From: Tubulanus polymorphus
Taxonomy: Eukaryota; Nemertea; Palaeonemertea; Tubulaniformes; Tubulanidae
DNA: 64,000 nucleotides
NCBI RefSeq assembly: GCF_964204645.1
Contig: NC_134031.1
Span: forward strand, 19,651,307-19,715,306
Direction: 5' to 3'
Below are positions 4,373 through 44,500 of this stretch, one piece after another (within the stretch, counting starts at the first letter, position 1; the number at the start of each line of letters is the position of its first letter). A program made the translations under genes and the position numbers. The notes below the pieces were generated by a model that did not search any database, had not been told where the DNA came from, and saw nothing but the letters and a program-made list of their open reading frames with translations.

Positions 4373-4414
<42 letters not shown>

Positions 4415-10298: not shown

Positions 10299-13200
10299 TT
10301 AGTTTCGACGACCCTTTCTCAGTGAAGCCGGTGTCGGGCTGGTCGCGGTACGACGCAGCGACGCTCGCCCGGTCGGCGTAGTCGTACGCGCCAATCGACC
10401 CGGTGATACGCCGCGAGTAGGAGAACGTTGACGCGAAGGCGCGAGTCTCGTCGGCGGCGTGTGCATGTCGATGCTTTCGTCGAGTTTTTTAGTTTCGTGG
10501 TCGAGTAAAACTGCGTCGAGATTCGCGTCGCGGGCAATGTTTGTGAGCGAACCGTCGAGGATGCTTCGAATGTCACGGATTTCGTCTCCCGTTCGAGCGC
10601 TGCGTGAGATGTATTGCTGACGTTTTCGCATCTCCTGATTCAACTGATCTTTCAATGTAGCGTTCTGAAATAGAGAAAAAAGACAAACTCGATAAAATCT
10701 AAATGTAGAGGCACATATCCTAAGTGAGACGCTTGTTATCGTCATTGAGGAAAACCCACAATATCAATTTCAACAACTGTTATTGTTTCTTTTAACATTT
10801 CAGGTGGAATCCTTCCACCTAACCTCACAGGTTATTTGAAATATCATAAGTTTTATTTTCTATTTACGAATAAACTCTGAAGATTATGTAAGCATTATAC
10901 GGAAGCGGTAAAAGTTGCTTTATAATATTCTATGTTTCGATGTCAGACATATTTTGCCAGTCCAAAGTTGTCTGACATATAGAAGTGAGAGTATGGCACT
11001 ATTAAACTACAAGAAATATCTGTTTTAAAGAATCAATAGTGAGTTGTTGTTGAAGTTATATTTACCTGTTCCTCGAGTCCTTTAACTCGTTGTCTGTGAG
11101 CGCGTTCACGTGACTCGAGAGCTCGTTCTGCTTGAATCTGACCAGTTCTCAGACGCTCGGTTTCCATTTCGGTTTCAGAGCGGTGTCGAGTTGTGAGATC
11201 GATCAGCCTGAAAATATCGACGCAAATTCAATTCATTAAATCACTGCTTTACTATAGTTTGATATCTTGAGACGGACATCATTTGATAACATCAAACCAG
11301 CTTGAAATACGAAGTTTAAAATCCGGACATTTCAAAAACTGGATACATTTTATCGGTCAGAATAAAGTGGGGTCTACTGGAGAAACAAGGAATGAAAGAT
11401 AATTTGAAACTTGTCTTACCTTTGTGCGTGTTGCTGTTCAGTTTCGGCGAGAGTCTGTTGAAGATTCTGAAGTTGTCTTTGTAATTCCATATTCTCCTCT
11501 TCCAATCGACCGAGCGAATGATCGAGAGTTGATTTCTCCGTCAACGACTTGCACGCTACCTCCTCGGTTTTCAACTTTTCGCGTTCGACCTTGTCGAGAG
11601 TTTTCCTCAACGCGTTCTTGTCTTTCTCCAGTCGAATTTGACTGCGTTCGATTTCGCGTTTTTCGTTTTCGATGTTCGCGAGCGTTCGTTGTAACGACGC
11701 GACGCGTTCCGTCAGAGCTTGTTTCTCCGCCTGAGCTTTCTGCAGACGTTGGTTCAACTCTTGTTCGCTCTCTTGACGCTGGACGATCACCTAAAAGGAG
11801 GAAATGTTTCAAAATGAGATTCAAATAATACTTAATTTCCTCCCAATCTGTGTAAAGCAATATTGAGGTATAACAACCAAATATCCATTACACTGACAAT
11901 CTTCAGGGCCCAGTTTTACAGACTGGTATTATCTTTAACCTGGGAACTCCCCTGGGTTTAAGACCAGTCTACCTATAAAACTGGCCATTACACTGACATT
12001 TCAGAAAAAATGCCTCCACCAATCTTCAGGGGCCAGTTTATCAGACTTATATTATCTTAAACCCAGGGGTTTGGATTCTTATTTTCAATATTCTTGGTCT
12101 TTTATATTAAACATCATACACTAAAAAGACTAGTGACTAGTCCTAATTAAGATGAAGTATGGCTGAATATCTATTTAACTTACAGTATGAGATTGTCTGA
12201 CTTGTCCTTCGATTTCAGCGCGACGTACTTCACTTTCCGACATTTCGTTTTGCAACATTTGCGTGCGTTCCATCAGATTGTGGTTCTGTTTCTTCGCTTC
12301 GTTCAAAGCCAATCTGCAAAAATACCGAAAATTAATGAAATTCAAGATTTTGCAAGCTTCGTAATATCGAGAATAAGAACAAAAATCTAAATGAAAGAGG
12401 ACGAACCTGGTTGTATCGAGTCTCTCTTGCAGGACTCGACGATCATGTTCGCTGCTTGTTAACGCTTTCTGTAACTGTTGGCAACGATCCTGCAGTTCCT
12501 GGATGGTGTTGGTACTGTCGGACAGCGTCATGTTTAGCGCCTGTACCTTGTCCTTCGATGAACTGCCTTCCTCTTCGGTTTTCGCGAGTGAAACGCTCAA
12601 ACGATCGATCGTCAGTTGTAACGACTGAGCTTTGCCTTCGAGATCCTGGATTTGTTTCGTCATTGCTTCGACGCGATCGCCCAAAACCTTTTAAACAAAG
12701 AATTCAAATGTATTAGCGACTAATTGAATAAAATCCTTATAAGATCAGTCCGTAAGAATCGTATGAATTCAGTAAACTCAGTCGGTAGAATTGGGACTGA
12801 TGTAATCACTGATTGAGAATCTGGGAAATTGAAATAAATTCCAAATAATTCTTCATCAAATTCACTCCACACTTGACCGGTTTAATAATTATGTGGTAGA
12901 TTCACAGAATCTGCCACATTTGACTAGAATATCCGAACAGTATTCTGACTGCGAGGTGTCATATGAATAACATGTAAACCTTATAAGACTTGATAGTTTC
13001 ACGATCGACACTTTCTAATATGAAACAATATTCCGGTCCTTTTTTGACGAACATATTTTTCGCTTCAGACTTCGACGATGTTTCCGACTTCGATTCCATG
13101 TTTGAAACTGCTGATTTCATCGATTCCGACTACACAATCCCAGACGTGTCACCGGCTTTACAAGTTTATACCTCCGTAATAATCCGCGCACCTATTACCA

Positions 13201-16200
13201 GTGAAATAGACTCTACCCCTCGTCGCATAGATACTATCAACCATCTATACAGCGCTTAAAACTACTAGTAAATATTTCACCAGGTAATTAATGACTCACT
13301 GCAATCCCGCAGGACTTGAATTGCGTGCAACGTTTGAATCTGTCATTGCGCAATCATGATAACTTTCAAAATGATCCATGTTTAACTAGTCGGACCATTT
13401 GACATAAAATCGCGGATTATTCTATGATAGGTGAAATCTTTTATTTCTTCACATGCGAAAAAATAATTGGCTTCAGTTCAGATAAAGGCGAATATGTTCT
13501 GACCATATGGAATTGATTCATAATTGATGAAGTATATTCTAGTCATCGGAGCTGCACGCGTTATCACTTCTCAAGACTGCACCTCATTAATCATTCATTC
13601 AGACTGCCTTTAATTGCCGGTACAATTGTAAGGAAGAGTGCAGTCTAATTCAATTTACCGACATACTTTTCCTCACACGTGCAAGGTTTAAAACAATAAC
13701 AGGGTGGCCACTGTCCGCTCATTTACGAATCACTGAGTTTTACAGGATTTTGGTAAAATTTGTCAGATTCCCCGAGTTTTCCCTGATTTTTTTGGAATCC
13801 CCGAGTTTCCGAGGTCAGTGGCCACCCTGACTTTGAGCTGGTGTAGAATAGGAAGTAATTCTCACCTGGTTTTCGGTGTCTTTGTCGGTAAGAACGACTT
13901 TCAAACGTTGCAGATCTCCTTCCATCGAGCGTCGAGTCAATTCTAGTTTAGTGCATCGGTTCTCGGCGTCGTCCAACGCAATTCGCAGGTTCTTCTTATC
14001 GTCTTCAAGTTTCTCTTCGTTCTGTTTCATCTTAGCGATACGTTCCTAAAGTAGAAATATTACAGAAACAATGTCATTCACCAGACTCAATCTTCATCTC
14101 AAATTATATCAGGTTTGTATATTCACTCCGATTTTGCATCCTATCAGGAAGGAACCAAACAATCAAACTCCAGTAACTCAAAGTTTCCTTTTTCTATATT
14201 TTTGTTGAATTCTTGTAACCATTTGTAAATTGTCATTAGAATGTTATTTCTTTCATGAAATGCTTTTTATGGATTTAACTATATTTTGTTAGAACTTAGT
14301 TTTATCTAAATAGAGTATACGGTTAAAAAGAAAGAATCCACTTCAGGTGAGGTATCTATAATCAGAGAATGTTTACGTACCTGAGATTGACGTTTTTCAG
14401 CTTCCATAGCCGATAAATTACGTTCCAATGTAGCGACTTTATCGCACAGCGTTTTACGTTCGCGTTCATTGCGACGGATTGTCTCTTCCTGTAACATCAG
14501 CGCGGTCTGAGCTCCGGCCAAACGAGTATCGATACCACGTTTATCTGAAATCCATACAAAACAACATTCTCATTTCAGTTGCAGAAATTACATAGATTTT
14601 CAGCTAGAAGTTGAGAAAGCAATCGCATAAACTTCTCAAGTTGCGAGAATATTCAATTTTTCTAGCTAAAGAAAATTACCAATGATCAAAGTTTGTTAGT
14701 TTTAGTTTAAATCTAGTAAGTATAAAATCATGCCTTACCAAGAAGAACATATACGACAGTATGTGAAAATTTGTACTTTATATTTGCTCATGTCTTATGT
14801 CGTACAATAAACTTATTTTCAATACCCTGCGTATTATTCAAGCAGATCCTAATGTATGTATAAACACATGGACAGGTGCCAATTTGAAACCCTGGCGTGG
14901 GTAACCAGGGAACTGTACATTCGGGCAAATACTGAGAAACATGTTCAGACAAGATTCACATTTTGAGGGTCGGACGCTCTGTTAGATTTCATGATTCAAA
15001 GGTTCAAATGCAAAGTATATCACAAAAAAAGTTTTTTTTATAACCAACATATGACCTATTAGGTTCATAGGTAGAAAAGTTTGAAGTCAAACTTATTGAA
15101 TTATGAGTGTATTGAAAGCCTTTCCCTTTCTATTGAAAACTGGTTTTTATTCACGCAATGAGGTTCGCATAAATAATCCATTTATTTTTTGAATGAAAAT
15201 GAACTTTTTATGTCGTGGTTTTTTGTATGATTTTACAGTTAGAATACTGTAGCTAGTAAAATACAATCATCGCATTGATGTCGGTAAATATAGACACATT
15301 GAGAAAATGAGGAAATATAGGAAAGCTGATATCAGGAAACCCTATGATTCTACTTTCAAATTCAGTGCAGCAACTTCTATTTGACTTGGTTTTTACCCTG
15401 ACATGCATGTTGTTTACCTTGAGTTGATTTGTTAAGAATCCAATCAAATAATGCAGTCAAATATGCAGGATATAGATGGAAACTGTTTGATTTTGATTTT
15501 TGATCTAGCAATCTCAAAATCATTCCCTGACTTTCCCCTGATTCCTAGGTAAGCAGCCGTCCTGTCTTCAGACTCTCTTTGATTAATGAAGGCCTGATTT
15601 TATACTATAGTCCTTAGGTTTATACCGATTTGCCGATGGTTGTTTACTGAAAATTTAAATGAAAATTCTTACCTTCTTCGCATTCGAGCATCGTTCTCTG
15701 CAGGTGTTCGAGACGAGCTTCAGTTCGGTCTCGATCTTCTTCCATTTCCTTCAGTTGAACCTGCAGACTACGAGCGGCGCAGACGGCATCGTCGCGTTCG
15801 CGCTCCGAGCCGGCTAACTGCTGTACGAAATCTCTCAACGCCATACGCACGGCTTCTGGGTCGATATCGGCGACATTGACGTCACCACCGCCGCGAGACG
15901 GAGATAGCGATCTCATCGGGCTACGGGCGCGATCTGGACTGCCAGTTCGCGGAATCGGGCTGCCTCGGCCCTCGGTTGTTGTGGCGAAAGTGTTATCAAA
16001 ACCTACGAGGACAAATATGAGATCGAGTTTATTAGCAATTCATAGAAAGCAAAATTGGGATTGGAAGAATTTTGTCGCAATGAGTTTAAGTCAGATTTCG
16101 CCATGTCCAGGATTTACTGTACGTACCTTTAGTAGGAGATGATGGGCGGGATCTACGAGGACTCGGAGATCGAGTACGAACCGGACTCGCCGATCGCGGC

Positions 16201-19200
16201 ATCTCCTGACGGAAACCGATCGTACGACGCAGAGTTGAGTGAATGCTGCTCAATTTAAACTCGACGTCTCTCTTTGCGCCTTCGACGCGGGCAAGTTGAG
16301 ATTCAAGGGCATTTACGCGACCTTCAGCTCCGCTCAGGTGTAATTTCAACTCGGCGATCTGTAAAATTAAATTCAACGTATTATTTTTCAGAAATATTGA
16401 TGGAATCAGTTGTAACTGAGCCGTTCTATGAACTGCTACATACATCAGCATTAGTTGATTCGAGTTGTAATTCCAGATTGTGTCGATTATCTTCCGATTT
16501 CTTCTCGGCGCGACGCGTTTCTTCCAACGCCATCTGGTAGTCTTTCTCTTTCAGACGATTTTCGTCCTCGGTTTCGGCCATCTTGCGTTGAAGATTAGCC
16601 AACTCTTTACGCAGCGCTTCGCGGCAAGCCTCGGTCTCGACGACTTTCTGTTTGAGTCCAAAGTTCTCGCGACGTGATTCTTCCTCTTTTTCCTCGTCTC
16701 GAGCGACGCGAACCTGCAAGTCACCGACTTCCTTCGAAAGTTTTCCACGTTCTCCGTCCAACAGTTTCACCTGTCGTCTGAGCTCTTGAAGTTCGCGTCG
16801 AGCGTCTAAACGAGATTTCTCGACCTCGCGTAGATTGGCGCGCAGGTCTCCGGCCTCTTTGGTTACGTTAGCTTTAGCTTCATCCAGAACGCCGATTTTC
16901 TGTTTGGCCTCCGACAGATTACGATTGAGTTCGACTTTGTCAGCTTCTGATTTTTTGACGTGGTTTCGGAGATCGTTAGCAGTTTGAGTGATGGCTTCTT
17001 TCTCACGAACTTCATCATTGATACAACGCTTCAAGTCAGTGATGTCTTTACGCATCAATTCTTTCTGTTCTTCAGCTGTTTATCGATAGAAATCATTAGT
17101 TAAACATATTTCAATTCAACCATTGATGAAACACTCATTTTTTATTGTTAGTGTAGGATTCCTCAACTACACAAACATGGAATAATTTTCAAAACATATT
17201 TCAGAACATGACAAGCTTTACCTTCTCTGATGTTACGGTTGGCTTCGATCAGGTCGTGTCTGATATTATCACGAGCTTCTTCAACCATCTTCAGTTGTAC
17301 CTTCAGTTCAGCGACCTCACGGTGAGCGAGCTCGCGTTGACGTACCATCTCCTTCAGCTGATTGTTCAAATCTTTCAACTCTTTCTCGTGACCGAGTCTG
17401 AAATGGGAATTAGATCGATTACAACATTTTATCTTTATGCGTGGACAAGAGAAAGACCATTCGCTATACAACTATGTCCCGTTAATTCGGGATATGATTT
17501 TGTGAGTAATACTTACACAGTCTCTTCGAAGTGAGCGCGGAATCGTTTCAGCTCTTGTTGTCCGTTTTGAATGGTAGCCTTGTCCTGATCGGATCGTGCG
17601 AGGGCCTCTCGTTTCAAACGTTCAAAGTCGGTGTTGGCGGCTTCGAGATCGCGTTGAGTATTGTTCAGTTTCTCAGTCAATGAACTCTTCTCTTGTTCAG
17701 CGATTGACAAAGCCTGGAAAAATAGATTGAATTGTGGAAATTAGTCAAAACAATGAGCCTGTTACTGATGAAAGTAATAATAATAATCGCCATGACTCAA
17801 CATGAAATATGCTATACATATCATAAAGATCTAGGATACAAAAGCATCTAAGGATGGACTCAAATCTTAACGGTTAGGTAACTTTAGGTAACTAATTAGG
17901 TAACTAATTCCAAAGATATTGCGCACAACAGTGAAAGGTTCTATGACCAGCAAATGGTCCATGGTTGAACTAAAATTGATGATGTTTTTACCTGTTGCTT
18001 GTCATTTTCAGCCATCAATAATGAATCATCTCGTTCGCGTTGAATTCCGATGATTTCGTTGTTTAATTCCTCTTTTTCCCGTTCGTATCGATTGACGAGA
18101 TCTTCTTTCTCCATGTTCTGTTGATGGATCAGATCATCGCGTTGAGCTTCCAGATCAGCTCGCTGGTATTCCTGCGATAAACAACGTCAAATAGACATAT
18201 TAGAGAAATATGAATGAAAATGTTATGAGAAAAATTTGTAAATTATCCCGATCGAAGGAGAGAAAATAAGTCCAATTAACTACTCAAGAATGGAAGCAAC
18301 TTTAATATGGAACTGAACTGGTCCCAACCTGTCGACAGTGAAAAATAGAGTCATAGACAGACTAACAGACAGACGCAACCTAAACCTGTCTGTTTTGTAA
18401 ACCCAAGTCCACGTCTCAGAGCTCAACACACCCGTAGCTCGAAATTCCGACCTGTCACAATTTCGTAGAATTCATCGATTTTTTCTACTGAACAAACTAT
18501 TTAAATGTTTACATTCTGTGAAATAGGTAAACATTTCTGAATTCATACCTCGACCGAGCAACCAGTAATAATCACTTTGCACCAAGCCATACTCTTAAAT
18601 CACAGACAACTCAATTGCGTTGATCGCAGAGAGAGCGAAATCATAAAATCAATTGGCACAAGGAAAACATAATTAAACATTCATCATCGCGACTTAGCCT
18701 TAGTCGTTGATGATCAACTACACGAGAATACTATTTCAATTCCCTAGTACTATGTAGAGTCCATAAGAAAATATGGCAAACTGAATAAATCCTACTTTGA
18801 CATCATCAAATGTCATAAAGGCTACAACAGTATTGTAGATAAACTTACAGCTGACCAGCAAACTGTTGTAATCTCCTGCCAGAACATCGATATAGTACTG
18901 AGAGCTTCACAGACGTCATTCACGCGTTTACCACTGATACAAGAATTCGGATTATCCGTATTTATAAAAGGCAACAGCAGCGGATTCCGGCTGAAATTAT
19001 CACCGATAGTTCGACGCGAATTTCGCGACTCGGTTTTCAGTTCAGTTTCCGATTCGTCACAAGTGATAAAGTCCGTATCGTATTCAACGCGATGCTCGTC
19101 ACGTTCGCAGTCGTCGGACAGCGGGAAGTCGCTATCCTCGGCCGGCGGATCGCACCGGATCTCGGGAATCGTCGGCAATGAAGCGCGATAATAATCCTTC

Positions 19201-22200
19201 TCATTATTATCCTCACTTTCCTCATCGGTCTCCCAGTTATTTTCATAAGAAGGAATATATTTGGAATTATCGATATATTCGTCGTGGAACTGAACGTGTT
19301 TCTCTTCAGTCGTGCAGTCCTCGGTCGGGATATACGACATATCCATACACCCTGAATCCGGCTCAACAAACTCATTCCGGCCGTTTTGTAACAATCCCTC
19401 TTCATTGCAGCGACCATCATCGTCACGCCAACCCGGATTATCATCGTCAATGTCTGTGACGTCGGTAACATCTGTATCCCGATAATCGAGAACTAACCAC
19501 TGCTCGCGTTGTGGTGGTTTCAGATTTTGATTTGGGTAGTCCAAAATCGGAAAAGTTTGGGTCGTCCAACGAAAAGGCATATTGACCCGAGACGAGATAC
19601 TGTTCACAACAGAGTCAGTGCTTCATTCAATCGAATACTAAACCTTCAACCACGACCAGAGGCTAACACTGATAACATTCCGTATGAGATCTCGACGGAA
19701 CTGAACTATACCGAAAATCAGATGAGCTATTGAGAAGTAAATTTACTTAATGCTAACAGTAACCATGGTTTTGTTTGAACGAACGGAGGGCTTAAAGTGT
19801 GTACATTCGCTGTAATACTAGCCAAACCCTCACTGTCCCTCGTCCGTCTGATAGTTTGGTAAACATCAATGAATACAAACTCATTAACACATTAGCAACT
19901 ACAAAACCATGAATGACCGCAATATCGATCAGTGGTCAGTCCTTTGTTATTCACAAATTCCACAATTCGATGTTTATTTATTTTCCGAGATAAAGGTGTC
20001 TAAACAAAGCAAGAAGCTCTTGACTGAAGGTTCAAATGATGTCCTACGCTGTGTCAATCAGAATATTCAATACTCGATAAGTCATGTTCTTCAAACTTTC
20101 GCCGAGTGAACTTTATCAGTAGACGGATAAAGAAATATTGAGACAATCACATTCAGCAAATATTCATCAGCATTAAAGCATGAAATTGAAACAAACATCT
20201 AAATGCTTTTTTAAATATGATCATTGCATAACGTGACCTGTGAACATAGGTTGCAAAACCGCCACATAGGAAAATAAACCACGAGGAAAGCTGAGCTGCC
20301 TGTCATACACAGAATAGGGTCTTCGATCCAAGCTATGAACCTTTTGTAGATTTGCATTGAACATTGTGAAACTAAATCCTTAAAAACCGTAAAATCTTAT
20401 AAAAGCGAAATATATTTGTACCTTTTCTCTAGTCATGCGTTCGATATCCTCTTCGTGAGATTGTTGTTCTTGTTTCAAAGCCAGACGTAAATCTTTCTCG
20501 GTCTGCTCGAGTTTTTGGTTGAGGTGATCTTTCTGGTGGGTGAGTTTCTCAACTTCGATCTCCATCTCTTTCCTCAGACGAGCGATATCGGCTACAAATA
20601 TATGAATTTAGAATGTATTCGCAGTGAGGTTAAGAACCAATATACAAAACAAGTCCCAAGGATTGAGATCATTCCTTGTCTTAGGCCTCTATCTACAGAA
20701 CATCATAGCGCGGATTACGTCTTACAAGAGTTGCGGCTAAACGTCGTCATTCTATAAGCCATAATTCTCTTCACCGTTTGCAGTTTAAGTTCTGAATGAC
20801 ATCTGAAAACCCGGGACTCGTAAAGAGTTGAAACAGGTCTCGTCTTGTAACGAGGAAGCCTTACTTTCTCTGACTAAATACACAGATACTACGGGAAGCC
20901 GCACGGGTATATAAACATTACGGGAAGCCACGTGTGGCGTATTTGAGTATTTACTCGAGTTTCCTATAAGATGAATGGGGTATCAATGGATTTCAATAAG
21001 GAAGGTGTTCTGTTTGTATAGTTAACGGTCACACATCATAGGTAATTTGAAAAATAAACCCAGGGCGACACATTGTAAATGCCCTAAAACATGGACTGGG
21101 TCACCTGAAAGCCGGTTGTGCAGTCATGGCTTAAATTTGAAACCAGTCTAAAACCATATCAGTTCTATAGACAATCTGACTTGCAGACTTAGGTCTTTAC
21201 TGCCCAACTGGACCTAGGTGGTTTTTCAATGCAAGATCACAATTTCTGACACAAATTAGATATAATTTATGGTCATATTCTTTACCTTGCAAGTTCTCCT
21301 TTTTCAGTAGGAGTTCTTGATTTTCACCCTCTAGTTGCTCTTTGCGTGTTTCCAGAACGGCGTTGATCTGTTGAGCTTCGTACAGATGAGTCTCTAACGC
21401 TTCTTTATCGCTCTTGAAACTAGCGATCACTTCGCTCTGCTGACGGTTCTCTCGTTCTCCGGCCGTCAACTGCACGATCAACTCGGCTTTCTCCTTCGTC
21501 AGATCTTCTTTCTCGCGGGCGACTCGTACGACGGTATCGCTGGATCGTTCGATCTCGTGACGCGCGTTCACGAGCTCCTCGGCCAGCGCCGTCTTCTGGC
21601 GAGTCAACGCGCTGTTATTTTCGATCAGTTCGCCCTTGTCTTTGTTCAAGTTGGCGATTTCGTTTTCGAGACGCATCAGATTTTGTTCGCTGAGTTCGAT
21701 CGTATGGTTCAAGCCTGAAACAAAAGAAATTTCGAATTAAACATCAGGAACTAGAAAAAAAAAACGCTGCAATTCATGACATTCAAAGTTTAGCAATCTG
21801 ACAGTTTCCAGATCTATCTAAATCCCATTTTCAGGAAAACGATTTCCAAATACATCAGATGTAACTATAGCGGAACCTTGTTACAACAACAAAATATAAT
21901 GAGTTATCGGTTGTTACAGACCTACAATTTCGTCCCAGATTATTTTAATAATTTGGTACTGGATATAACAAACTATTGGTCATAGTGATCATATTTTCTG
22001 ATCCCCTGATGTTGTAAAGAGTTTCCACTATTATCCAACATATCATAAATCTATTCGATAGTTTCAGTTAATTGAAGAAAATTCAATGTGAAAATATTCA
22101 CAGAATATAAAAAATCAGCCACACAGAAGCATAACACGATACAGAAAGTTTTAACTTATTTTCAAACGCGGAAATGAAAACTGATCTGAGTTTGCATCGA

Positions 22201-34200: not shown

Positions 34201-36935
34201 CTCAATGTATTGCTGAAATAATATAATAAATGCTCCGATGATTTTTAGGAATATACGCGCTCGTCTATATATGTTAGTTAAAGGGGGTGTGACATTTACA
34301 TTCTAGTTTTCATATCACTCAAAAGGGGGCGTGTCGAAGATACTTAAGATAACTGAAACTATGTCTACAAATACTTCAGAATAATGTTAAGATTTGAGCT
34401 AGCTTTTTTCTCAAAGTTATAGGCTAAAAACTACGGAACCAATGAAACCTGATAAAAAGAAAGACCATATTTACGAAGACATCTGTGTGAAAAAAAGTTA
34501 TCAAAAGTTGAAATAGAATAACTAGTCCTTCTATAAGAGAAACTAGTTAAACCTGGTTTTCTAAGCATATAGCCTAACATTAACAAGAGCTTTATAAGCA
34601 TTCATTAGATTCTACATAATTACTGATCGAAAAAATATGTTAAGGTTAAATCTTTATCATAAATATAAAAAAAAGAGCCTAATAAAATACTTGCATCGGG
34701 AATAAGGGCATTCGACTGCCCTCGTGAGTAATAGCCTGAAGTCATCTTAAAGTCCTTCGATCTTCTCTAAACCAGGTAACGTGTAAGACGACGAGAATTT
34801 CAGTTATTCCATCGTCAACGAACGCCGAGTAAAGAACAAGTGTCTGATTTCTTGTTTAAACTTAGTAACTAGGGGAAACTAAGACGAGCCGTTCCGCTGT
34901 GTTGACTATTGGTAAATAGCCCGGACACACCGTATTGACCAGCCCAGAACGGTAGCCATGAATGCGCACACACGCATTGTCAGTGTCACTCGACGGATTA
35001 AACATATCCGTATATATATATGAAATAACATGATTTCAAAAAGACACCGAACATCTATTTCTTAAGTACATTCAAGTGGGCCTTTTACCAGACAGCATAA
35101 AAGCTTGCATTCCTCGAAGGTATTACATAAAATGTATTTCTTTATAGAAATAAAGACAAAGTTTGATGGAATATTTGACAGACGACTGACAAAAATGTCT
35201 AGTTCTATTCATTGCGCATGAAAAGCAAACTGGTTATGAAAACCTTTTTGAGATGATGGTTACATAAGTTTAGAAAAATAGACCGGTTTTCTGATAATAC
35301 ATCTGCCGTAGGTCCTATGTTGGGGGAAACTTAACCCACACCACCGAAGGCTTCCCCAGGATGATATCAACATTTGAAAGTGAAATTGACTGATTTGGTT
35401 CGTTTGGACATCATCTATTCCGCCAAATTCATCTATCATAATTTGGAATTGTAAGCCTTCAGATGTCTTGCAGGATAAATTGTCAGCCACAACTGTCGAC
35501 TGGGTGCTGCTATTAGTTGTCAGTGGTATGCCCGCTGGCACAGAGATGAGTCAACTATATACAACATAGAAACTGAGAGAGGAAGTGACTACGAACATGA
35601 ATAGCGTCCATATAATCGCTCCTTTTAATAAACGCACAACAGAAATGCAATTATCAGTGATGATGTCTCTTCAATCATATGACAATAGAAATGTTAAAAT
35701 TCTATTAGAATGTTTCACCACATCTAGATAGATACAGCCAGCTCCAGCACGCAGCCCGGCCGCCTGCCCGTGTATCACAACTCTGGGAAACTAAACACGT
35801 GTCATATGTCCAATGATGTCTATAGATTGTACAATACAATGACAGAAAATTTCCGACCAGACTGAAGACGACTCAGAAATATAGCATATCGATAATCAGG
35901 TAAATCTAACACTTCAAACTTTGTGACCAAAAAATAAACTATAGCGAATAATAAATGATCACTTGTAACTAATTATTGTGGATAAGATTATCAAATTCCT
36001 TCACTAAATCTATTAAAAATGGTTTCGCAAAATTCGCAGTAAGTTTTGTAGTTGAAAACCTCTTTTTTTTAGAAAATTCCTTAACCAAATGTCGGCATAT
36101 AATAAAAACTCTTCAGGTAGAATTGAATGAGTAATGACGTTTTGATTGAGTGATAATTTCCTTAAAAAGCTTCACGAACCAGAACAAATGGCCTACACGA
36201 ATAAAACGGTGATCTTTATAAAGGAACTAATGCGCTTTTTATCAATTTCACGCTAGTTGAAGGCATGAATTTAACCCGGGACCCGGTAAATCAATGATCT
36301 AAAAAAACACTTCACCAAGCACATCATCAATTTATAATGATAACTACGCGATTATAGCTCACCTTGGGAAGACTACCGTAGTACGAATCTCGAAACCAAG
36401 ACATTATCGAAAAATCTAGCCGCGAAAAAACTCCTTCTTAACGAAAACTGCGAAATATTGGTTAGGTATCCAATTACGAATCTAGATTCACGTCGAGTGA
36501 TGTGTCTCGGGAGCCAGAACAGTGTCGAGGTGTTATAGGCTCAGCAGGCTAGTAGCAATGAGGCCATTAGCAGCGACGGTTCAGTATTTCAACACCGTCA
36601 GAGACACCTAGTCAGCAGTACTCGAATTAATCACCCCTAGCAACGTTTGCAATCGCGCGCGGGAACAAATCTGGACAGGCCCGCGATTTCAAACGAAAAT
36701 ACACGTCTTCTCGGGCAAGCCAGAGTCGGACAATAGGACCACAAACACCGGCTATTGTTTGACAACAGCAGCGCGTTAATGCAAAGTAAATTAGCCATTT
36801 CAACGACTACTCAAGAAGTTGGATTGAGGATAAATAATTACTTTGCAATAATTATAATCTTTTCGGGGGCGAAATTTCTTCAACTTCGATTTACGGTTTA
36901 CGGACTGCAATCTGAGTATACAAACAGTCAATGAG

Positions 36936-37002
<67 letters not shown>

Positions 37003-40000
37003 ATCAGGAATCTATCTATTTGTTTGGTTAGAACAAGAGATGTCTATTTCTAGGGGGGTCAGTGTTAAATACCGCGTACAAACTCAAACTTAACTAATAA
37101 ACCGTCGATTAAAATCCCTGTCATGCGTTCGTGATCACGTTTCATAAATTTACAATCAACGGTAAATTACGATAGATCTAATAAATATAACCAATTAAAA
37201 GCCGGCACATTAGAATTTTGTTCATAACTTTTATGAGAATTTCTAGATTGTATTATAGTACTTAAACCCTTATGATAGGTATTTATGATATAGTTTACAA
37301 GCCTCTGACCAATTCCAGTATGAAAAGCCTTGTAAGACTAGAGTTTTGACTTGTAAAACTAGCAGCAGTCATTAATAAGCAAAGATCTGTTGATTTCTAA
37401 TAATAATTTTCAATTTTTTTTCAAGAATTTGGACAAGATTTACTTGTTTGGATCACTTTGTTTGTATAAACTAATTACTCATGTGCATGCCCTGTCAGGA
37501 TAACAGTTAAATAACTGTAATTAACATTCAATTAATTACGACTAATCGAGAATGAGTATCAGTGTGTCAAATCTCGATCAAGAGCTGGGTAATTGGATCC
37601 ACTGGATTCTAAGATCTAGGATTTTGAGCTATGAAATTCATCGACAATTCCGAAATTCTTGACCAAGAAAAGAGCTGAACTTTTCTTAGGAAATGATCTC
37701 ATATTTAGTGTCTTCAAATCCCACAGAGGGGCAGCACCATACAGTCGTACTAAACCGATCTCCCTTGTCTCAGACATCTATAATACATAATCGACACTGA
37801 GCCCGTCACAACAATTTCAAATCACGAAAAATAATTACCGGCAGCATTTCGATTAGCACGAACTCGTTTGATTCATAGACGATCGTTTAAAAAAATCAAT
37901 CACCGATAAATGATGAACAGTAATTGTTAGATATTGATTAATGATCTATTTTCACGTAGAGTTTTATCATTTTCATTATTAGACCGATAATCGACGGTTC
38001 ACTAGCGAATATAAACAATACAACTTCATCGCGTTAGTCGTGTGTATCGTAGCGATTTGTTATTTAACGATAAAAATCATCTAACCGTGAAAACGTGTAG
38101 GTTTAGTTAGAGACTGTTTACACATTTACACAGTGGCAACTAGACCAGGCGTTGAGGAAAGGTGCAGTTTTTATTCGAGCTGAGAGATTCATCCAAACAT
38201 TTCACATTGACCAGGGATGCTTCATAAAGCAAGGGTCACAGGGAAATTGGAAAAATCATTTCTCGGTTAAAGCAGCCAAGTCAAAAGCCTCTATCGGCGT
38301 TTCACCCTCAGTTTTAGATATTTTGAGAAAATACAACCGAAAAGGTCGCAAACTGTGAGAGGATGAATGCCAAATTTACAGGTTTTAATGATCTCTGTCT
38401 TGACAAAAAGGGCCACCTCAGGTGGAAGGCAGGGGCCCGGACCCCGGAGACCATCGCCTAAATCCACCCCTCAGTCAGAGTAATGCTGCCCCCTGTACAT
38501 ATCAAATTGAAAGAAAGCTCAACACAGAATCCTTGTAATTAAAGAACATTGAACAACGACAGTAAAGAACAAACAGAACAGCGTCAACTATAACGACAAT
38601 TCTAATACATACTCTTGATGAAGACATGAATAATCTGTGTCTAATAGTTGACTGTTGGTGCAGCAGTGAGTGCAAGAAAAACAAGTGCATTCTTTATTAT
38701 ACACATCCTGACCACAGGATACAGCATGGTGCGGTGCAAGGATAATCCTCGGCTGGTGCCGGGATGATCTAAGCCGGATACATGCACAGATGTATGAAAA
38801 TATGAAATCAACAACAAATCCATGTTTTCTATTGCCGGAAACAAGAGAAAACATCATGATGTTTCTTGTTTTCTAGTTCTGCACATTGTGTAACGAATAA
38901 ACACAAAAACACTTTTTCTGTTGGAAATGTGTTTTCGATTGCTGTGTGCATCCGACTTAGAAAATCGTCAAGTGAAGGTGAAATACTCATCACCGAAACT
39001 GGGGACGTGTAATTGAAGAAAAAACTATCCATTATGAAGAAAAACTAAGATTCAATTTCTATGAGCCATTTTCAAAACTAGAATTGAGTCTAAATGTCAT
39101 TGCTCACTTAGTTTTGAAAATGGTTCATAGAATTGAGTACAACTCTCTTTGTTTTCTTCATAAATATAGGTCTTTCTTCAATTGAATCATAGTCTATGGA
39201 AACCAACAGGGGGAAATGTTGTCTCCACAGACTGGGAAACAAGTGAAAGATGACAAGTGAAGTAGATTTAGAAACTGACCTTCTCGCTGAGAGCGTTGTA
39301 TTTGATACCGATCTCATCTCTCTCGGCTCGAGTTGTCGCTAGTAAATCTTCAACTCGACTCAACTCGTGTTGAAGCATTCGATTCTCTTCCTGAACCGAC
39401 GTTAAACCGGTAGCGGCCATATTGTCGTCTGCTGCTGCGGCGACCGGTTTCTCGTCCTCGGCGAGGTTTTTCGTGATGATATCGCGGATTCGCGCGGGCA
39501 CTTTCTCCGGGGGCGAGCTGTCCGTATCTTTCAACGTTAATTCACCGTCGGTGTCTTTATTGAGGACGGTGTCTTCGAGTTTCTGAAACAGAAATACGCA
39601 ATTCGTAAAATCCATTCTGCATCGTCGTCGCCGTGGAGCTGAACTCATTGTTATATGTACAGGTGAATAAGATCGACCTGTCTATACATTTTCTGATGTT
39701 ATAGCAACAGCTATAACCGTGAATGAGGAGTCATCATCTCATTCACTGCTGCTCTCTTAGTCATCCTTCACTCCTCTGAGAGACAAACTCGAACCTAGAT
39801 TCCGTAATAAAAATCATAATAGAGGAGGCTATTTTTACGTAACAACGCGTACAGTAGATTCTCTTTACCCCGGGAATCAACTGCCTCGGATTACTGCATG
39901 CCCAGGATCCAGCTCTTGAGTTAAGATTTGAGTTATTTAGCTCAGAGTTAACCCTAACTCATGCAACTCGATCCTGAGTTTACAGTTAACTCACAACTGT

Positions 40001-42541
40001 CCAACTGGATCCTGAGTTCAGAGTTAACTCTAACTCATGAATAGGCAACTGGATCCTGGACATATATATAACAGATTTTCTTACTCCAATTCATGGTGAT
40101 AATGAACCATCCCTGCTCCGGCAGCCCCGGAATTCACACAACTCGGCCCCACGAGATCGGAGGCAAGTAGAGTCTACTTTACTGCTGTAAATAAAAAGGT
40201 TTTCCTCCCCGCAATAAACATTTATCAATCAAACGTAAATGGAGGACAATGTCCTCAAAATTAAAAAAGAATGAAAGTCTTTATCTCGATAATAAATGTT
40301 CTCCTGCCTATAAACACTTGACTTACTTATTGAGAATGATAAAACAGTATCCAAAATAATGACAGAAAATACAACAAATATAACCGAAAAACGTACACGC
40401 CAGTAAGCAAGGGTAGTACATGACTGTGAAAGGGTTCTGAATCAGTAGAAAGCCATCGATTCATCACAATTAGACGGCTTTTTGATGTACAAAAAGTAAA
40501 AGGGCTTGGACTCCCTGCCGTTTGAAAGCGGAGAGTGAAAACTTCACGTAGCGAAAGCAATGTTGATATAATATAACGATAAAAATTGTTTTAAAAAAAA
40601 TATCTCAAAGCGCACGCAATATTTTATTTCGCGGACTGCTGAGTGGTTAATGGACATTCCGAATAGTTCATAATATTGCTAAAATACCTCATAGAGTTAC
40701 CATCAAAAAAGTTCATGCTACATATACGATATAATATTCATAAGCTGAGGGGGGTACGCGGAGAGGAGAGCTTTTCAAGTGGTCATGCAATAAAAATCCA
40801 TTTGGAACATAATGAACGTTTTTTTTTTCTACAAGGCCAACCAGATCCAATAATGAATTTACATCATTGCAGCAGAATTACATAGTAGAACGTCAGACGT
40901 CAGATAAAAAGAATGAAACTGAGTCAATAGATTAAAACAAAATTCATTGGTCAAGAACTAAAACTGAAAATTACAAGACAATGTTTGAACTGTTTGAAAC
41001 GTTGATTCTTTTAATTTTTTATTTCAATTCTTGATTTCATAAATTTGATATCTAATCTTGGGTTTCAATCTTATCATCTATCTCCGTATCCTTTGATATA
41101 GACAGCTTTTCGAATATTACATGAGCAAATTTCATTGTGTATCTTGTTTTTTTGCGAAGAGGACTAACAGGACTCGTATTGAAGTATGGTAACTTTTGCT
41201 GATCACAGCAAATAAATTTGCTGCATTTCTTTTCTAATTTTCTAGAAAAGCTTGACAGTGAAGTTGAAATAAATACCCAACACATTAACGGTACTGATAT
41301 AATGTCACCATTCTTTCTTAAGGAGGCATTGAAAAAGATATACGTCTCGTTTTTTGAATACACGCGTCGAGGGAAAACGATTGAACCGTGAACAGATTTA
41401 GACATCGTCGAAACAATAGAAACTGTATTTAAACTTTACACGAAAAACAGGGCATTCTTTACAATGATTGAAAGACTATTCATTTAGAGAGATAACCTTA
41501 GCATTGTAGAAAGATTTTTTACAGTCGGTTTACGGTGAGACGAATCCCGGGGTTTCATTATCAGATTTCTAACGTCCTGAGAAAATACAGAATATTGAAT
41601 ATTGTACACGTTATTCTTGTTTTCGCAATTATTTCTTGAATTTGAAACGTCAAAATGAAACCAGTTACAATTATCGCAGATTATTTTGACGGTATTGATT
41701 TTCAGTTAAATTTGACGGTGAATGCAAAACTACTGGAATAAGAATGCCAAAATAACGCGTTAATACCGAGGTTATTTTAATGCAAAATGTGAAAGAAGAC
41801 AACCGGCCATTCATTACGATATATGCTTAGAAAAAGTCTTCTATTTTCTATGTTTAAAACCAATACGGGTTAAAGCTGGCCATAAATTCATACACTACAT
41901 CAGGGTAAGTCACACGACCATCTTCGGAGACATATTTGATAAAACTGTATCTCAGTTCATATCAATCTCAGAAGAGGAGTTGAAGCAACATCTAATTTTC
42001 ATTATTAACGTAGTCTTCGATATTGTGGGTGCTGTGTCTCCCGGTCTCTAGCTGCTCCCTGACTTCATCAACTGTCCCCAAATGCAAATTTATGTTAAAC
42101 CAACTTTTGAATGTGTAGAGAAAAAATACTTTATAACAACGGATAATCACTGATTGACAATTGACAAGAAATGTGGTTTAAGTGAAATCATAGACGATCA
42201 TGCACGAGTGTGATTGTTTGTGTATATATGAAGGGTGGTAGGGTAGAGGGTAACAGGAAGATTATTACAATATATAGCTGCACCTGTATCACTGACTCGA
42301 GCCCGGTGTCGTCTGCCGAAGGAACTGTTACAGCGCCACCTATAGTAATCTGACTTACACTGGCTGTAGTAGTAGTAGTAGTTGCCGATACTGCGGTGGT
42401 CACGCGTTCGATGACAGTACTATCACCGGTGACGACAGTAGACTGATTGTTGTCGATCTGTTCGATCTGTTCGACCTCCGCTGTCGTCGTAGTCGTCTCC
42501 GTTTGCTGCTTCTCCGTCGTCTGTTCGAGCGTCGTCGACAT
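10299..42541 (-). CDS. CROCC: Rootletin (ciliary rootlet coiled-coil protein), complete
   Basis: Coding exons in gene order (high to low coordinate): 42284-42541, 39280-39582, 33170-33361, 31156-31236, 30433-30513, 29952-30079, 29632-29797, 28867-29079, 27702-27823, 26632-27037, 26230-26366, 25667-25918, 23924-24051, 23016-23303, 21286-21714, 20422-20591, 17992-18171, 17517-17713, 17222-17397, 16444-17075, 16127-16358, 15673-16002, 14381-14544, 13866-14045, 12407-12687, 12184-12313, 11420-11790, 11066-11207, 10299-10664. Every junction keeps frame, giving about 2217 residues with one of the two 81-base exons (2244 with both). Nearly the whole protein is predicted coiled coil. RKLQAYQDGQQRQAQLVQKL, SALIKLEEEQQR and EHSRLLSLWRAVVAFRR match vertebrate rootletin at the equivalent places. 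Ser/Arg/Pro linkers interrupt the coil in exons 26632-27037 and 15673-16358, and the C-terminus is a basic SP/TP-rich tail. Rootletin forms the striated rootlet that anchors the basal body and centrosome linker. Confidence 0.95.
11905..12075. repeat. Tandem/inverted copies of a CCAGTTTTACAGAC motif
   Basis: GGGCCCAGTTTTACAGACTGGTATTATC recurs in related form at 12028 (GGCCAGTTTATCAGACTTATATTATC) and inverted near 11960-11990 (AGACCAGTCTACCTATAAAACTGGCC). Similar pieces are at 53826 and 54182. Probably a small mobile repeat family. Confidence 0.45.
12980..13120 (-). CDS. Candidate alternative first exon F of rootletin
   Basis: ATG at 13120 opens 47 codons rich in Ser, Lys and Glu (MESKSETSSKSEAKNMFVKK inside it), ending in AAG before GTTTAC in phase 0. 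The next rootletin exon, 12407-12687, begins in phase 0. A reverse-strand TATAAAC lies at 13164-13170, about 44 bases upstream. The donor is weak and the opposite strand also has an open frame, so confidence is low. If used it would give a short product of about 476 residues covering the C-terminal rod and tail. Confidence 0.33.
13700..13829. repeat. Mini inverted-repeat transposon, CAGGGTGGCCACTG ends
   Basis: A 130-base block starts CAGGGTGGCCACTG and ends with its exact reverse complement. The interior is AT-rich with CCCTGATTTT. It lies in a rootletin intron. The perfect 14-base ends suggest a fairly recent insertion. Confidence 0.85.
15430..15566. repeat. Fragment of the CAGGG inverted-repeat family
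   Basis: Contains the family interior in reverse order (TGATTTT, GATCTAGCAATCTCAAAA, CCCTGACTTTCCCCTGATTCC) and ends AGCAGCCGTCCTG. It lies in a rootletin intron; the left end is degraded. Confidence 0.5.
18849..19580 (-). CDS. Long candidate alternative first exon E of rootletin
   Basis: ATG at 19580 opens 244 codons without a stop, ending at a perfect GTAAGT donor in phase 0. The next rootletin exon, 17992-18171, also begins in phase 0 and is normally joined from 20422-20591. The peptide starts MPFRWTTQTFPILDYPNQ, is strongly acidic (many Asp and Glu, DVTDVTDIDDDNPGW) and looks disordered; I recognise no domain. In AT-rich DNA an open frame this long is unlikely by chance. Together with exons 17992 down to 10299 it would give a protein of about 1370 residues holding the C-terminal half of rootletin. 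It could also be an exon of an unrelated nested gene. Confidence 0.62.
19759..19772. promoter_or_regulatory. Weak X-box-like site upstream of exon E
   Basis: GTAACC-AT-GG keeps one strong half site, but the other half (GGTTTT) matches poorly. It lies about 180 bases upstream of the ATG at 19580. Noted only because similar sites lie near the other rootletin start candidates. Confidence 0.2.
21874..22033. repeat. Small inverted-repeat element (GGAACCTTGTTACAA ends)
   Basis: GGAACCTTGTTACAAC near the left and GTTGTAAAGAGTTTCCAC near the right are imperfect inverted ends around an AT-rich core in a rootletin intron. The element at 56284-56557 has similar ends. Confidence 0.4.
23355..23453. repeat. 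Mini inverted-repeat element (CCCAGTTCCACAGTTC ends)
   Basis: CCAGTTCCACAGTTC at the left is matched by GAACTGTGGAACTGG at the right, about 99 bases in all. The motif AACTGGATCCTGG at its end also terminates repeats at 31515-31660, 39990-40055 and 62020-62035. Confidence 0.6.
25453..25615 (+). repeat. tRNA-derived SINE
   Basis: CAGTAACTCAGTGGG resembles a tRNA A box and GTGGGTTCGAGTCCTG, about 50 bases downstream, matches the B box. It lacks a complete cloverleaf with mature acceptor stems, so I read it as a SINE head in a rootletin intron and not a tRNA gene. Confidence 0.55.
26020..26200. repeat. First of two related repeats flanking a rootletin exon
   Basis: Shares TTCCCTGA, CCCTTGAC, AAATTCCCTGATcCAATTA and CAGTGGGGGCTGTTTCTT in the same order with 26395-26600. 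The two copies lie in the introns on either side of exon 26230-26366. Confidence 0.6.
26395..26600. repeat. Second of two related repeats flanking a rootletin exon
   Basis: Related to 26020-26200 over roughly 180 bases, including GATTC-TACAGA, CCCTTGACCGTAAATTCCCTG and the CAGTGGGGGCTG block. Either two insertions of one element or a small tandem duplication spanning the exon. Confidence 0.6.
30433..30513 (-). CDS. CROCC: Rootletin exon 4b, one of a duplicated 81-base pair
   Basis: Acceptor CGTAG, then 27 codons starting VLQYKRKCGELET and ending before GTAAGT, phase 0 on both sides. It differs from exon 4a mainly in its second half (KSLEQQSDTDRVKR against SENADIRAFTDRGRR). Probably mutually exclusive with 4a, because other rootletins have only one copy, but both in series remains possible. 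Confidence 0.85.
30834..30973. repeat. Mini inverted-repeat element (GCCGCATTC ends)
   Basis: GCCGCATTCGCACTATCGCT at the left mirrors AGCGTGAATGCGGC at the right; 140 bases, no coding content, in a rootletin intron. Confidence 0.65.
31156..31236 (-). CDS. CROCC: Rootletin exon 4a, one of a duplicated 81-base pair
   Basis: Acceptor CTAG, then 27 codons starting VLQYKKRCGELES and ending before GTGAGT, phase 0 on both sides. The first twelve residues are nearly the same as in exon 30433-30513, and vertebrate rootletin has one such segment (ILQYKKRCSELE). Equal length and equal phase mean either exon, or both, could be used without a frameshift. Confidence 0.85.
31490..31665. repeat. Tandem repeat, period about 43-44 bases
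   Basis: Between three and four copies of a unit containing GAAACTGGATCCTGAG and TTAACTGTAACTCATAACT. A diverged array of the same unit is at 39900-40060, also in a rootletin intron. Confidence 0.75.
32230..32310 (-). CDS. Candidate alternative first coding exon D of rootletin (Cys-rich)
   Basis: Two ATGs at 32310 and 32307 open 27 codons containing the cysteine cluster CPRLDCPYCRCWE and ending at a consensus GTAAGT donor in phase 0. The next rootletin exons, 31156-31236 and 30433-30513, both begin in phase 0. An RFX X-box-like palindrome lies 117-131 bases upstream. The cysteines are unlike the rest of rootletin. No acceptor precedes the ATG, so it would be a first exon. Confidence 0.42.
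32427..32441. promoter_or_regulatory. X-box-like palindrome near candidate exon D
   Basis: On the minus strand it reads GTTTCC-ATG-GGGAAC, which fits the purine/pyrimidine half-site pattern of RFX sites with a three-base spacer. Its position upstream of the candidate first exon at 32230-32310 makes it a possible internal promoter element. Confidence 0.45.
32815..33122. repeat. Inverted-repeat transposon (GCTGTGTTCACACTT ends)
   Basis: GCTGTGTTCACACTTATTGC at 32815 is mirrored by CAAGTGTGAACACAGC ending at 33122. It is 308 bases with no open frame and ends only 47 bases from rootletin exon 33170-33361. Confidence 0.75.
33362..36362 (-). other. Rootletin intron between exon B candidate and exon 33170-33361
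   Basis: AT-rich intronic DNA. An open frame on the minus strand at 35260-35541 encodes a peptide I do not recognise and I do not call it. No other structure seen. Confidence 0.4.
36363..36404 (-). CDS. Candidate alternative first coding exon B of rootletin
   Basis: ATG at 36404 opens fourteen codons (MSWFRDSYYGSLPK) ending at a GTGAGC donor in phase 0. The next rootletin exon, 33170-33361, begins in phase 0, so splicing would give an isoform lacking the 187 residues of the first two exons. An X-box-like site lies about 225 bases upstream (36630-36644). The exon is short, so chance cannot be excluded; transcript data would decide. Confidence 0.5.
36630..36644. promoter_or_regulatory. X-box-like site near candidate exon B
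   Basis: ATCACC-CCT-AGCAAC has a full right half site and five of six left half-site positions, with a three-base spacer. It lies upstream of the candidate first exon at 36363-36404. Imperfect, so moderate support only. Confidence 0.35.
36937..37000. repeat. (TA)n microsatellite
   Basis: About 32 uninterrupted TA units about 530 bases upstream of candidate exon B. Similar but much shorter TA runs are at 9348-9360 and 30602-30616. Confidence 0.97.
39900..40060. repeat. Diverged tandem copies of the GGATCCTGAG unit
   Basis: Three units with CAACTGGATCCTGAGTT and AGAGTTAACTCTAACTCATG, related to the array at 31490-31665. Confidence 0.65.
41052..41405 (-). CDS. Hypothetical 117-codon open frame in the first rootletin intron
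   Basis: ATG at 41405 to TAG gives MSKSVHGSIVFPRRVYSKNE and onward, 117 residues, uninterrupted. No recognised domain, no clear promoter or polyadenylation signal. It might be a nested small gene, an old retrocopy or a chance open frame. Confidence 0.18.
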   Translation of the reverse strand: MSKSVHGSIVFPRRVYSKNETYIFFNASLRKNGDIISVPLMCWVFISTSLSSFSRKLEKKCSKFICCDQQKLPYFNTSPVSPLRKKTRYTMKFAHVIFEKLSISKDTEIDDKIETQD

Positions 42542-44500
42542 GAAGACGATCTTTATATCGAGTTCATCATTTACGATATTCGAAATATCTCAACAACTGA
42601 ATCCACAAGCTACACGAATGAGACGTTTAATTAACTACTGTTACTCCTTGCATCGATACTTCAATTGACACGAATTCAAACCGATATCGGAATATCACAT
42701 CACCGATTCTCATTAAAAGTCCGGCGCTCACTAAAACACGTCCCCTAAAACAACACTAACATCAGTATCACAATCACCGAGACTAGACACGATATCTTAC
42801 GGCTATAAATATCGCGCGCAGAGCCCTCTACATTGACAATCGAACACTAATTCAACAGACGCCTGATCAATGAGTATTGTTGTTGCCAGGCAACGATGAA
42901 AAGCAGTACGGTGCCGCCACCCCGATGAATGAACCCTACGTAGTCGGTGGGTATTGTTTACGATACCGGTTCAGCTGACCTGAAGAGTTCTATCCAATCA
43001 GGTAAGAAACAATCATATCTTGAAATCCCTACAGTTGAATACCTTCACACACAGTGTCTGTCACACATACAGCACACGCAAATTATCAATATCAATTTAT
43101 GCTAGTTTCAGTCTATACAGGCTGACAATATTTCTCTACTGCAAAATTTGAAATTTTAAATAAATCTCTGAAGATGGATCTAGATGTCAATGAAACTGAT
43201 TTTTCAGTTGTTGTTTAATTAATATTGTGGGTATTTTAAATGATCAGTCAATTTATCGCGTTTTAGATAGAAGAGAAATTGTCAAGAAATTATGAGAAAT
43301 GATCGAATGTGGAAGATAGAGATGTTTGATGTTTAATTATTTTACTTTAGAAAAGTAGAAATATTAATCCACACTGAATGTCGTGTCACCAAATTACTGG
43401 ATACAAAAGAAAAAGCTCAAACTCAATAAATTGATCCATGTGCGAAGGGTTACTTAGAAATAAAAAAAATAAAATTAGACAAAATACTAGATAAAAAATG
43501 TTTGTCTTCGAACATATACCAATAATAATAAAAACAAACTAAAGCTTGGAAACACAAAAGCCCTACAATTAACTATACATAGATTGACTAAGTCCGATAT
43601 TCTAAGAAGAATATTGATCACCAAGATATTAGCGACATAGCCTACCTGTAACCACAGTTTACAGTCCAGTGTCACTGACTGATATTCAGAAACTCAACTA
43701 AAACGCATCGCCCGCCCGCGTCCGATCTTTATCAATGTTATCATTACATTCCCAGTTATATCTAATGGATTTTTTTCTGATATTGAAATATGTACCATTC
43801 AAAATACTTTCTATTGAATCTCATCAGGGGGTACAACCAGCGGGACGTAAAAAGCGCTAATGCGTCGTAGCAGCAGGAAATAATGAAAGTATGGTTTCAT
43901 CGGCCTACTTCAAAAAAAAAGGATCTTCCATGCAGAAAATTTTTATTCAAAAAGTATCACGTAAAAAGTATATAGTATTTCATTGATTAGTTCATATCAT
44001 CATTACTACTATCACTATTGGACAGAATAGTGTCTGGGATGCGGTTCTCATTGTATGTAGGGATAACCTAGTTTGCCTAAGAGCTAAGAGGCATTAAAAA
44101 GATGAATACAGAATTTGGTTAGTAGCTTCAAGAGGACGGCCAAGAGAAATATCTTGAAAGAAAAAGAGGTCCCAATAAATGTCCCCAAATAGAGGTTGTC
44201 CTCTGAAGGCAGAGGTAAGCTCTAATTAGTCCGCTAGAACCCTCAACTCTGAACTGTTTTTGTTTGTGTGTGTGTGTGGTGGGGGTGGAGTATGACTGTA
44301 GTAAGGGGGAGGGGCAGTGGAGCTGACACAAACTGGATGAATGAAATTTTTGTTGAAGAATTCACTCAACCATGAACTCGACACACCCGACAGCCGGACA
44401 CGGCCCGACCCTCTGTGTAGCCGTCTGCACAGTGCACATGCTGACTCTGACCGACAATGACATGACAACCAACCAGTTTCATTAGGGATTTCAGGTCACG
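42542..44500. other. Rootletin upstream region
   Basis: Contains the X-box at 42882-42894. A minus-strand splice-donor-like site near 43645 (CAG before GTAGGC) could belong to a non-coding first exon, but no in-frame ATG precedes it. A GTGTGTGTG run with GGGGGTGG follows at about 44266-44288. No coding exon seen. Confidence 0.4.
42882..42894. promoter_or_regulatory. RFX X-box upstream of the main rootletin start
   Basis: GTTGCCAGGCAAC is a perfect palindrome of two X-box half sites with a one-base spacer, 341-353 bases upstream of the ATG at 42541. RFX factors control ciliary genes through such sites, which fits rootletin. It supports 42284-42541 as the principal first coding exon. Confidence 0.75.

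Follow-up and report, generated by a model that had tools for sequence, protein, structure and literature searches.

How one protein, rootletin, comes to form long striated rootlets in one cell and thin centrosome linkers in another is an open question, and the rootletin gene of the nemertean Tubulanus polymorphus poses a related one: from how many points is this gene started? The gene lies in a window of 64,000 nucleotides (nt) of NCBI RefSeq assembly GCF_964204645.1 (contig NC_134031.1, positions 19651307-19715306); the window is the whole stretch that was analysed, positions are counted from its first letter, and genome-wide searches spanned 267.8 Mb in 77 contigs. An earlier, sequence-only reading had proposed five nested promoters at this locus, mostly driven by RFX factors and yielding progressively N-truncated rootletins with different heads. 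We consider it rather probable that a single gene here is transcribed from two starts, of which the second lies within the intron between exons 15 and 16 (E15-E16).

One complete rootletin gene was identified on the minus strand, with 29 coding exons running from E1 (42541-42284) to E28 (10664-10299). Its open frame comprises 2217 amino acids (aa) with one copy of exon 4 and 2244 aa with both, and the sole stop in the assembled model is the terminal TAA. The exon boundaries rest on the open frame, GT/AG dinucleotides and rootletin-like sequence, the model being a predicted one. The Rootletin profile PF15035 matched with 239.3 bits (cut-off 36) over profile positions 1-187 of 188 when the first exon 4 copy (E4a) was used, and its genome-wide matches at E ≤ 0.001 are four exon pieces, all at this locus. 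The full gene is rootletin: the Pfam gathering score is exceeded across the whole of the PF15035 domain.

Five minus-strand frames had been put forward as alternative first exons, namely E1 itself (42284-42541, 86 codons, with the donor CAG/GTGCAG), 36363-36404 (14 codons), 32230-32310 (27 codons, ending in GAA/GTAAGT), 18849-19580 (244 codons) and 12980-13120 (47 codons). Each does start with ATG, stay open, measure a multiple of three and have GT at its end, and the rootletin exons that follow them (E2, E3, E4a, E16 and E24) are indeed entered in phase 0. This agreement of phase carries little information, because 15 of the 28 introns in the model are of phase 0 and the frames were picked to fit. 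ATG-to-donor frames in the 15 phase-0 introns were therefore compared with those of 60 dinucleotide shuffles and of the opposite strand, using a donor matrix trained on the 28 real donors of rootletin. Frames matching 36404-36363 (at least 14 codons, donor at least 8.41) were seen twice, against a shuffle mean of 0.50 (maximum 3) and none on the opposite strand; those matching 32310-32230 (at least 27 codons, donor at least 6.73) were also seen twice (shuffle mean 0.78, maximum 3; opposite strand 0); and those matching 13120-12980 (at least 47 codons, donor at least 1.39) numbered eight including nested ones (shuffle mean 2.65, maximum 8; opposite strand 1). These three frames are thus inside the shuffle range, yet somewhat over its mean and over the opposite strand. 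For 19580-18849 (at least 244 codons, donor at least 5.44) the single frame seen had no counterpart in any of the 60 shuffles.

Codon statistics separated the frames in a similar way. Against a null of 249 intron open reading frames (ORFs) taken from both strands of all introns except E15-E16, the 36404 and 32310 frames fall within the body of the distribution, while the 13120 frame reaches about the 95th percentile on both codon measures and is therefore borderline rather than dismissed; its donor (1.39) scores lower than all 28 real donors. A 36-codon frame that had not been proposed (33039-32932) has a donor of 8.41, better than that of the 32310 frame. When frames of at least 60 codons with a donor of at least 3 were counted in the phase-0 introns, five were seen against a shuffle mean of 0.55 (maximum 3): two are the 19580 frame itself, one overlaps inside it and two are a single frame starting at 41405. 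The last (41405-41121, minus strand, 95 codons) lies in the E1-E2 intron and has weak donors and no coding support. One of the four internal heads, that at 18849-19580, clearly exceeds chance, and it alone does so; the 36404, 32310 and 13120 frames are most likely chance. The caution already attached to the short frames, that each is individually weak, holds for 36363 and 32230, which are at chance level, with 12980 a borderline case.

The 18849-19580 frame occupies an intron of 2250 nt and encodes a putative head of 244 residues with an isoelectric point (pI) of 4.08. It may be asked whether this is a chance or decayed open stretch, no internal frame being used at all. None of 2000 local, composition-matched sequence shuffles contained an ATG frame as long, the longest reaching 167 codons, and there are no stops in this frame against 5 to 28 in each of the other five. 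Its observed/expected CpG ratio (1.61) is like that of the exons (1.54) rather than the introns (0.95). A scan for coding segments outside the exons (10299-43000) placed its highest score, 36.5 bits, at 19232-19002, inside the frame, whereas the best minus-strand segment outside 18849-19580 reached 12.9 bits. Synonymous codon use scores 0.024 bits per codon, with the 95th percentile of the 249 intron ORFs at 0.001, and is the best among the six frames of the interval. Several results favour the chance stretch and weigh against a coding role: a plus-strand segment overlying the frame scores 27.7 bits; the periodic score (-0.031 per nt) is just under the 95th percentile (-0.027); the whole frame totals -22.9 bits under the coding model, which was trained on a Lys/Glu-rich coiled coil; and the synonymous score becomes slightly negative (-3.9 bits) when set against local base composition. 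Furthermore, no relatives of the 244-residue head were found in Pfam (0 families), among PDB structures (best E 0.64) or elsewhere in its own genome (best other E 2.31). On balance a chance or decayed stretch is decidedly unlikely, and 18849-19580 is well supported as predicted coding sequence.

The frame is single copy in the genome. Searches of the genome with the DNA around all four internal heads (32200-32560, 36340-36760, 18560-20400 and 12940-13300), in which very common words were skipped, returned for each region a match to itself only, so that these searches gave no sign of a mobile-element origin of the heads.

As to what kind of exon 18849-19580 may be, an in-frame stop is found 45 nt upstream of its ATG. 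The best AG between this stop and the ATG scores 2.8, when 27 of the 28 real acceptors score at least 5.5, and both AGs upstream of the ATG would yield exon lengths not divisible by three. A cassette exon was ruled out on these two grounds, and the frame is predicted to start a protein. It ends in GCT/GTAAGT in phase 0, matching the phase-0 entry of E16 (17992-18171). Beyond the true donors, GTAAGT occurs at three of 25032 intron positions (40326, 32229 and 18848), two of them at the ends of the proposed 32310 and 19580 frames. The strength of this donor is a point on the other side: with a matrix score of 5.44 it is lower than 27 of the 28 real donors, and donors scoring as high occur once per 491 intron positions.

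A second explanation of the frame is an independent, intronless nested gene that is never joined to rootletin. The frame remains open for eight codons beyond the donor, to a stop at 18822 (252 codons in all), a lone ATTAAA is found downstream at 18306, and the composition of the protein, with its low pI, is unlike that of rootletin. However, no AATAAA is present between 18848 and 18172, the ATTAAA is located about 500 nt beyond the stop, and a phase-0 GTAAGT within the final eight codons would be improbable by chance, given the rarity of this hexamer in the introns. Such a nested gene is unlikely, if less so than a chance stretch, and splicing to E16 is clearly the more likely of the two.

The favoured reading, a second start inside rootletin, may be set out as follows. 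The ordinary start would be that at E1, with a spacer-1 X-box before it and under RFX control, and would give the 2217-aa protein. The second start, without an X-box, would lie in the E15-E16 intron, where the first coding exon (19580-18849) would encode the 244-residue acidic head; spliced in phase 0 to E16, this head would yield a protein of 1370 aa. Such a form would lack the N-terminal half, PF15035 domain included, while keeping the coiled coil of the C-terminal part (1126 aa from E16-E28). What the sequence itself shows is the open frame with its coding character, its donor and matching phase, and the lack of a usable acceptor; that transcription begins in the E15-E16 intron, that the head is spliced to E16 and what the short form does are inferred from these. 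In human CROCC each end has been described to bind PCM1, and the N-terminal domain to bind nesprin1 (PMC10901237); by analogy, the short form should retain one PCM1 site but not the nesprin1 site. Without nuclear-envelope anchoring and with the C-terminal PCM1 contact kept, it could serve to terminate, cap or redirect fibres of rootletin. The claim of N-truncated rootletins with different heads survives, as a prediction, for one internal head, at 18849-19580, and not for a series of progressively shorter products.

X-boxes had been said to precede several of the heads, those at 42882 and 32427 being present and those at 36630 and 19759 matching poorly. The box at 42882-42894 (GTTGCCAGGCAAC, spacer 1) is an exact match 341 nt upstream of the E1 ATG. 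The box at 32427-32441 (GTTCCCCATGGAAAC) is a perfect GTTNCC-N3-GGNAAC palindrome. That at 36630-36644 (ATCACCCCTAGCAAC) has a single good half and three mismatches in the ten fixed positions, and that at 19759 has four. The pattern GTTNCC-Nx-GGNAAC was counted genome-wide with the pattern read backwards as control, giving 283 sites against 56 for spacer 1, 703 against 65 for spacer 2 and 165 against 131 for spacer 3; by these counts the genome is strongly enriched in sites with spacers of 1 and 2, and scarcely in those with spacer 3. Compared with background, then, the 42882 box belongs to an enriched class, whereas the 32427 box is rare in shuffles (1/100) but of a class that is not enriched. 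E1 thus has upstream a consensus X-box of an enriched class, which was the mark adopted here for an RFX X-box target promoter, and the 42882 box is a credible promoter-proximal X-box and a probable RFX site of the ordinary promoter. Spacers 1 and 2, being above their controls, provide a usable filter for predicting ciliary promoters in this genome.

Among the internal heads a perfect spacer-3 site precedes that at 32310 only. For none of the four do the 350 nt upstream contain a spacer-1 or spacer-2 site of one mismatch or fewer, and before the 19580 head no X-box was found at up to two mismatches over the same distance. Perfect sites of the three spacer classes number 1151 per 267.8 Mb, so that about 0.14 is expected in the 32.7-kb gene, and the chance of one perfect site besides the promoter's own is therefore about 13%. 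A site with one strict mismatch or none was present in the 350 nt upstream of 3% of points. Sites of the grade of 36630 are present over that distance upstream of 64% of points between 10.3 and 43 kb under a degenerate consensus (at most one mismatch) and of 87% under the strict consensus (at most three mismatches). In Drosophila a degenerate X-box gave 50,000 hits (Laurencon et al. 2007, PMC2375033), and an X-box upstream of an ATG is described there as not predictive of RFX control.

The region around 36630 has a character of its own. The stretch at 36401-36800 is a GC- and CpG-rich intronic patch, ranking 11th of 246 non-exonic 400-nt windows by CpG count, and holds at 36636 the only CCTAGCAAC in the window; a promoter or another element is possible there. 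We take CCTAGCAAC to resemble one half of the X-box of major histocompatibility complex class II genes. An (AT)n run at about 36938-37000 adjoins the patch. The CpG profile says little as a promoter test, because introns stand at about 0.95 and offer no background of depletion.

The model of five nested promoters, mostly RFX-driven, can draw on the existence of all five frames, the perfect and shuffle-rare palindrome at 32427, the position of two of the three intronic GTAAGT at the ends of these frames (32310 and 19580), the unique CCTAGCAAC in its GC- and CpG-rich 400-nt window and the high percentile of the 13120 frame on both codon measures. Set against these, the 36404, 32310 and 13120 frames are within the range of the shuffles, spacer-3 boxes are not enriched, a site like that at 36630 lies upstream of most points in the locus, the Drosophila work (PMC2375033) gives an X-box before an ATG no predictive value, and the best internal head, that at 19580, lacks an X-box. 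This model is highly improbable, and the series of five cilium-switch promoters looks to be mostly chance: the solid 19580 head is without an X-box, and the frames at 36363 and 32230, which have the better X-box-like sites of the internal heads, are at chance level.

A different role may be considered for the 32427 box, which, if bound, would act as an intronic enhancer for the ordinary promoter instead of forming a separate one. In Drosophila, a 406-bp piece of rootletin intron 1 drives a reporter in chordotonal neurons (PMC4489026), and this reporter-active element shows another part that an intronic RFX site could play; the frame beside the 32427 box is moreover at chance level. Binding at 32427 is doubtful, however, because the spacer-3 class is not enriched genome-wide, and the enhancer explanation has a slim chance of being right.

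A candidate second source of variation was identified in the N-terminal half of the gene. E4a (31236-31156) and E4b (30513-30433) are both 81 bp long and of phase 0-0, and share 50 of 81 nt and 14 of 27 aa (synonymous divergence dS 0.96 and nonsynonymous divergence dN 0.45, from few sites). The introns flanking them are unalike (10/40 and 13/40), and codon bias is weak in both. With E4a or E4b the PF15035 profile matches in one stretch over positions 1-187 (239.3 and 238.5 bits, respectively) and with neither it scores 197.3 bits; with both, the match breaks into two stretches whose summed score, 248.3 bits, is the highest. Tandem mutually exclusive exons are a known general arrangement. The two copies resemble it in being adjacent, homologous and equal in length and phase, and are probably two versions of one slot, their exclusion being predicted from the sequence and inclusion of both being the less probable case. 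It is possible, and we put it forward tentatively, that the locus makes at least three kinds of protein: long forms from the RFX promoter with either exon 4 inside the conserved PF15035 domain, and an RFX-independent 1370-aa form with the acidic head.

Long and short ciliary proteins from one gene are known from mammalian SPAG16, where alternative promoters give SPAG16L and SPAG16S of 71 and 35 kDa, with partly different locations (PMC5282894). The arrangement proposed here is alike in that respect; it differs in that SPAG16 is another protein, in that the rootletin promoter and short product are putative and in that a large, new acidic head would be part of the short form. From rootletin/CROCC the present gene differs in its putative internal start exon and its tandem exon 4 pair. 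The primary paper on CHE-10 of Caenorhabditis elegans is reportedly that of Mohan et al. (2013). The account of CHE-10 given in a passage of a review is silent on alternative first exons (PMC8435291), and isoforms of human rootletin are mentioned in a paper whose relevant passage does not state their origin (PMC8636639). Drosophila rootletin (CG6129) is controlled by RFX and has a promoter-proximal X-box, as is expected here for 42882, whereas the part of that paper dealing with it describes no internal RFX promoters (PMC2375033). Among the literature matches listed, no paper was found on alternative promoters of rootletin or on mutually exclusive exons in it, which does not demonstrate their absence. 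If the tentative reading with at least three kinds of protein is true, the short form would serve cells requiring a rootletin fibre or a centrosome linker that is not anchored to the nucleus, and rootlet architecture would be set by the choice of start site and of exon. Two genetic handles on the question of rootlets and linkers would be provided, one a start exon by which the N-terminal half is removed, the other an exon that can be swapped within the conserved N-terminal domain.

The remaining exons of the model, all on the minus strand, are as follows. E1 is followed by E2 (39280-39582) and E3 (33170-33361), both entered in phase 0; the PF15035 match begins in E3, runs through either exon 4, E5 (29952-30079) and E6 (29632-29797), and ends in E7 (28867-29079). 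E8 (27702-27823), E9 (26632-27037), E10 (26230-26366), E11 (25667-25918), E12 (23924-24051), E13 (23016-23303) and E14 (21286-21714) lead to E15 (20422-20591), which ends in phase 0. E16, entered in phase 0, would be the first exon common to the short form, and is followed by E17 (17517-17713), E18 (17222-17397), E19 (16444-17075), E20 (16127-16358), E21 (15673-16002), E22 (14381-14544), E23 (13866-14045), E24 (12407-12687, entered in phase 0), E25 (12184-12313), E26 (11420-11790), E27 (11066-11207) and E28, the final coding exon, which includes the TAA. The 3' ends of E12 and E25 were fixed by hand. No further copies of rootletin exons were found in the rest of the window or on the plus strand at E 0.5, and no solved structure resembled the E3-E7 region at E 0.1.

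Elsewhere in the window, short imperfect repeats on 'aactcaggatccagtt...ttatgagtt' were seen by eye in two introns (31500-31660 and 39900-40060). On the plus strand, coding-like exons were noted at 971-5722, two of which gave 0 Pfam families. They bear a tentative resemblance to DNAJC16. A tandem repeat array at 58410-58970 has several frames open on both strands. A neighbouring PEX2-like gene lies on the plus strand at 54876-56365, with matches in two exons to Pex2_Pex12 (E 6.5e-9) and to a RING finger (E 4.6e-5).

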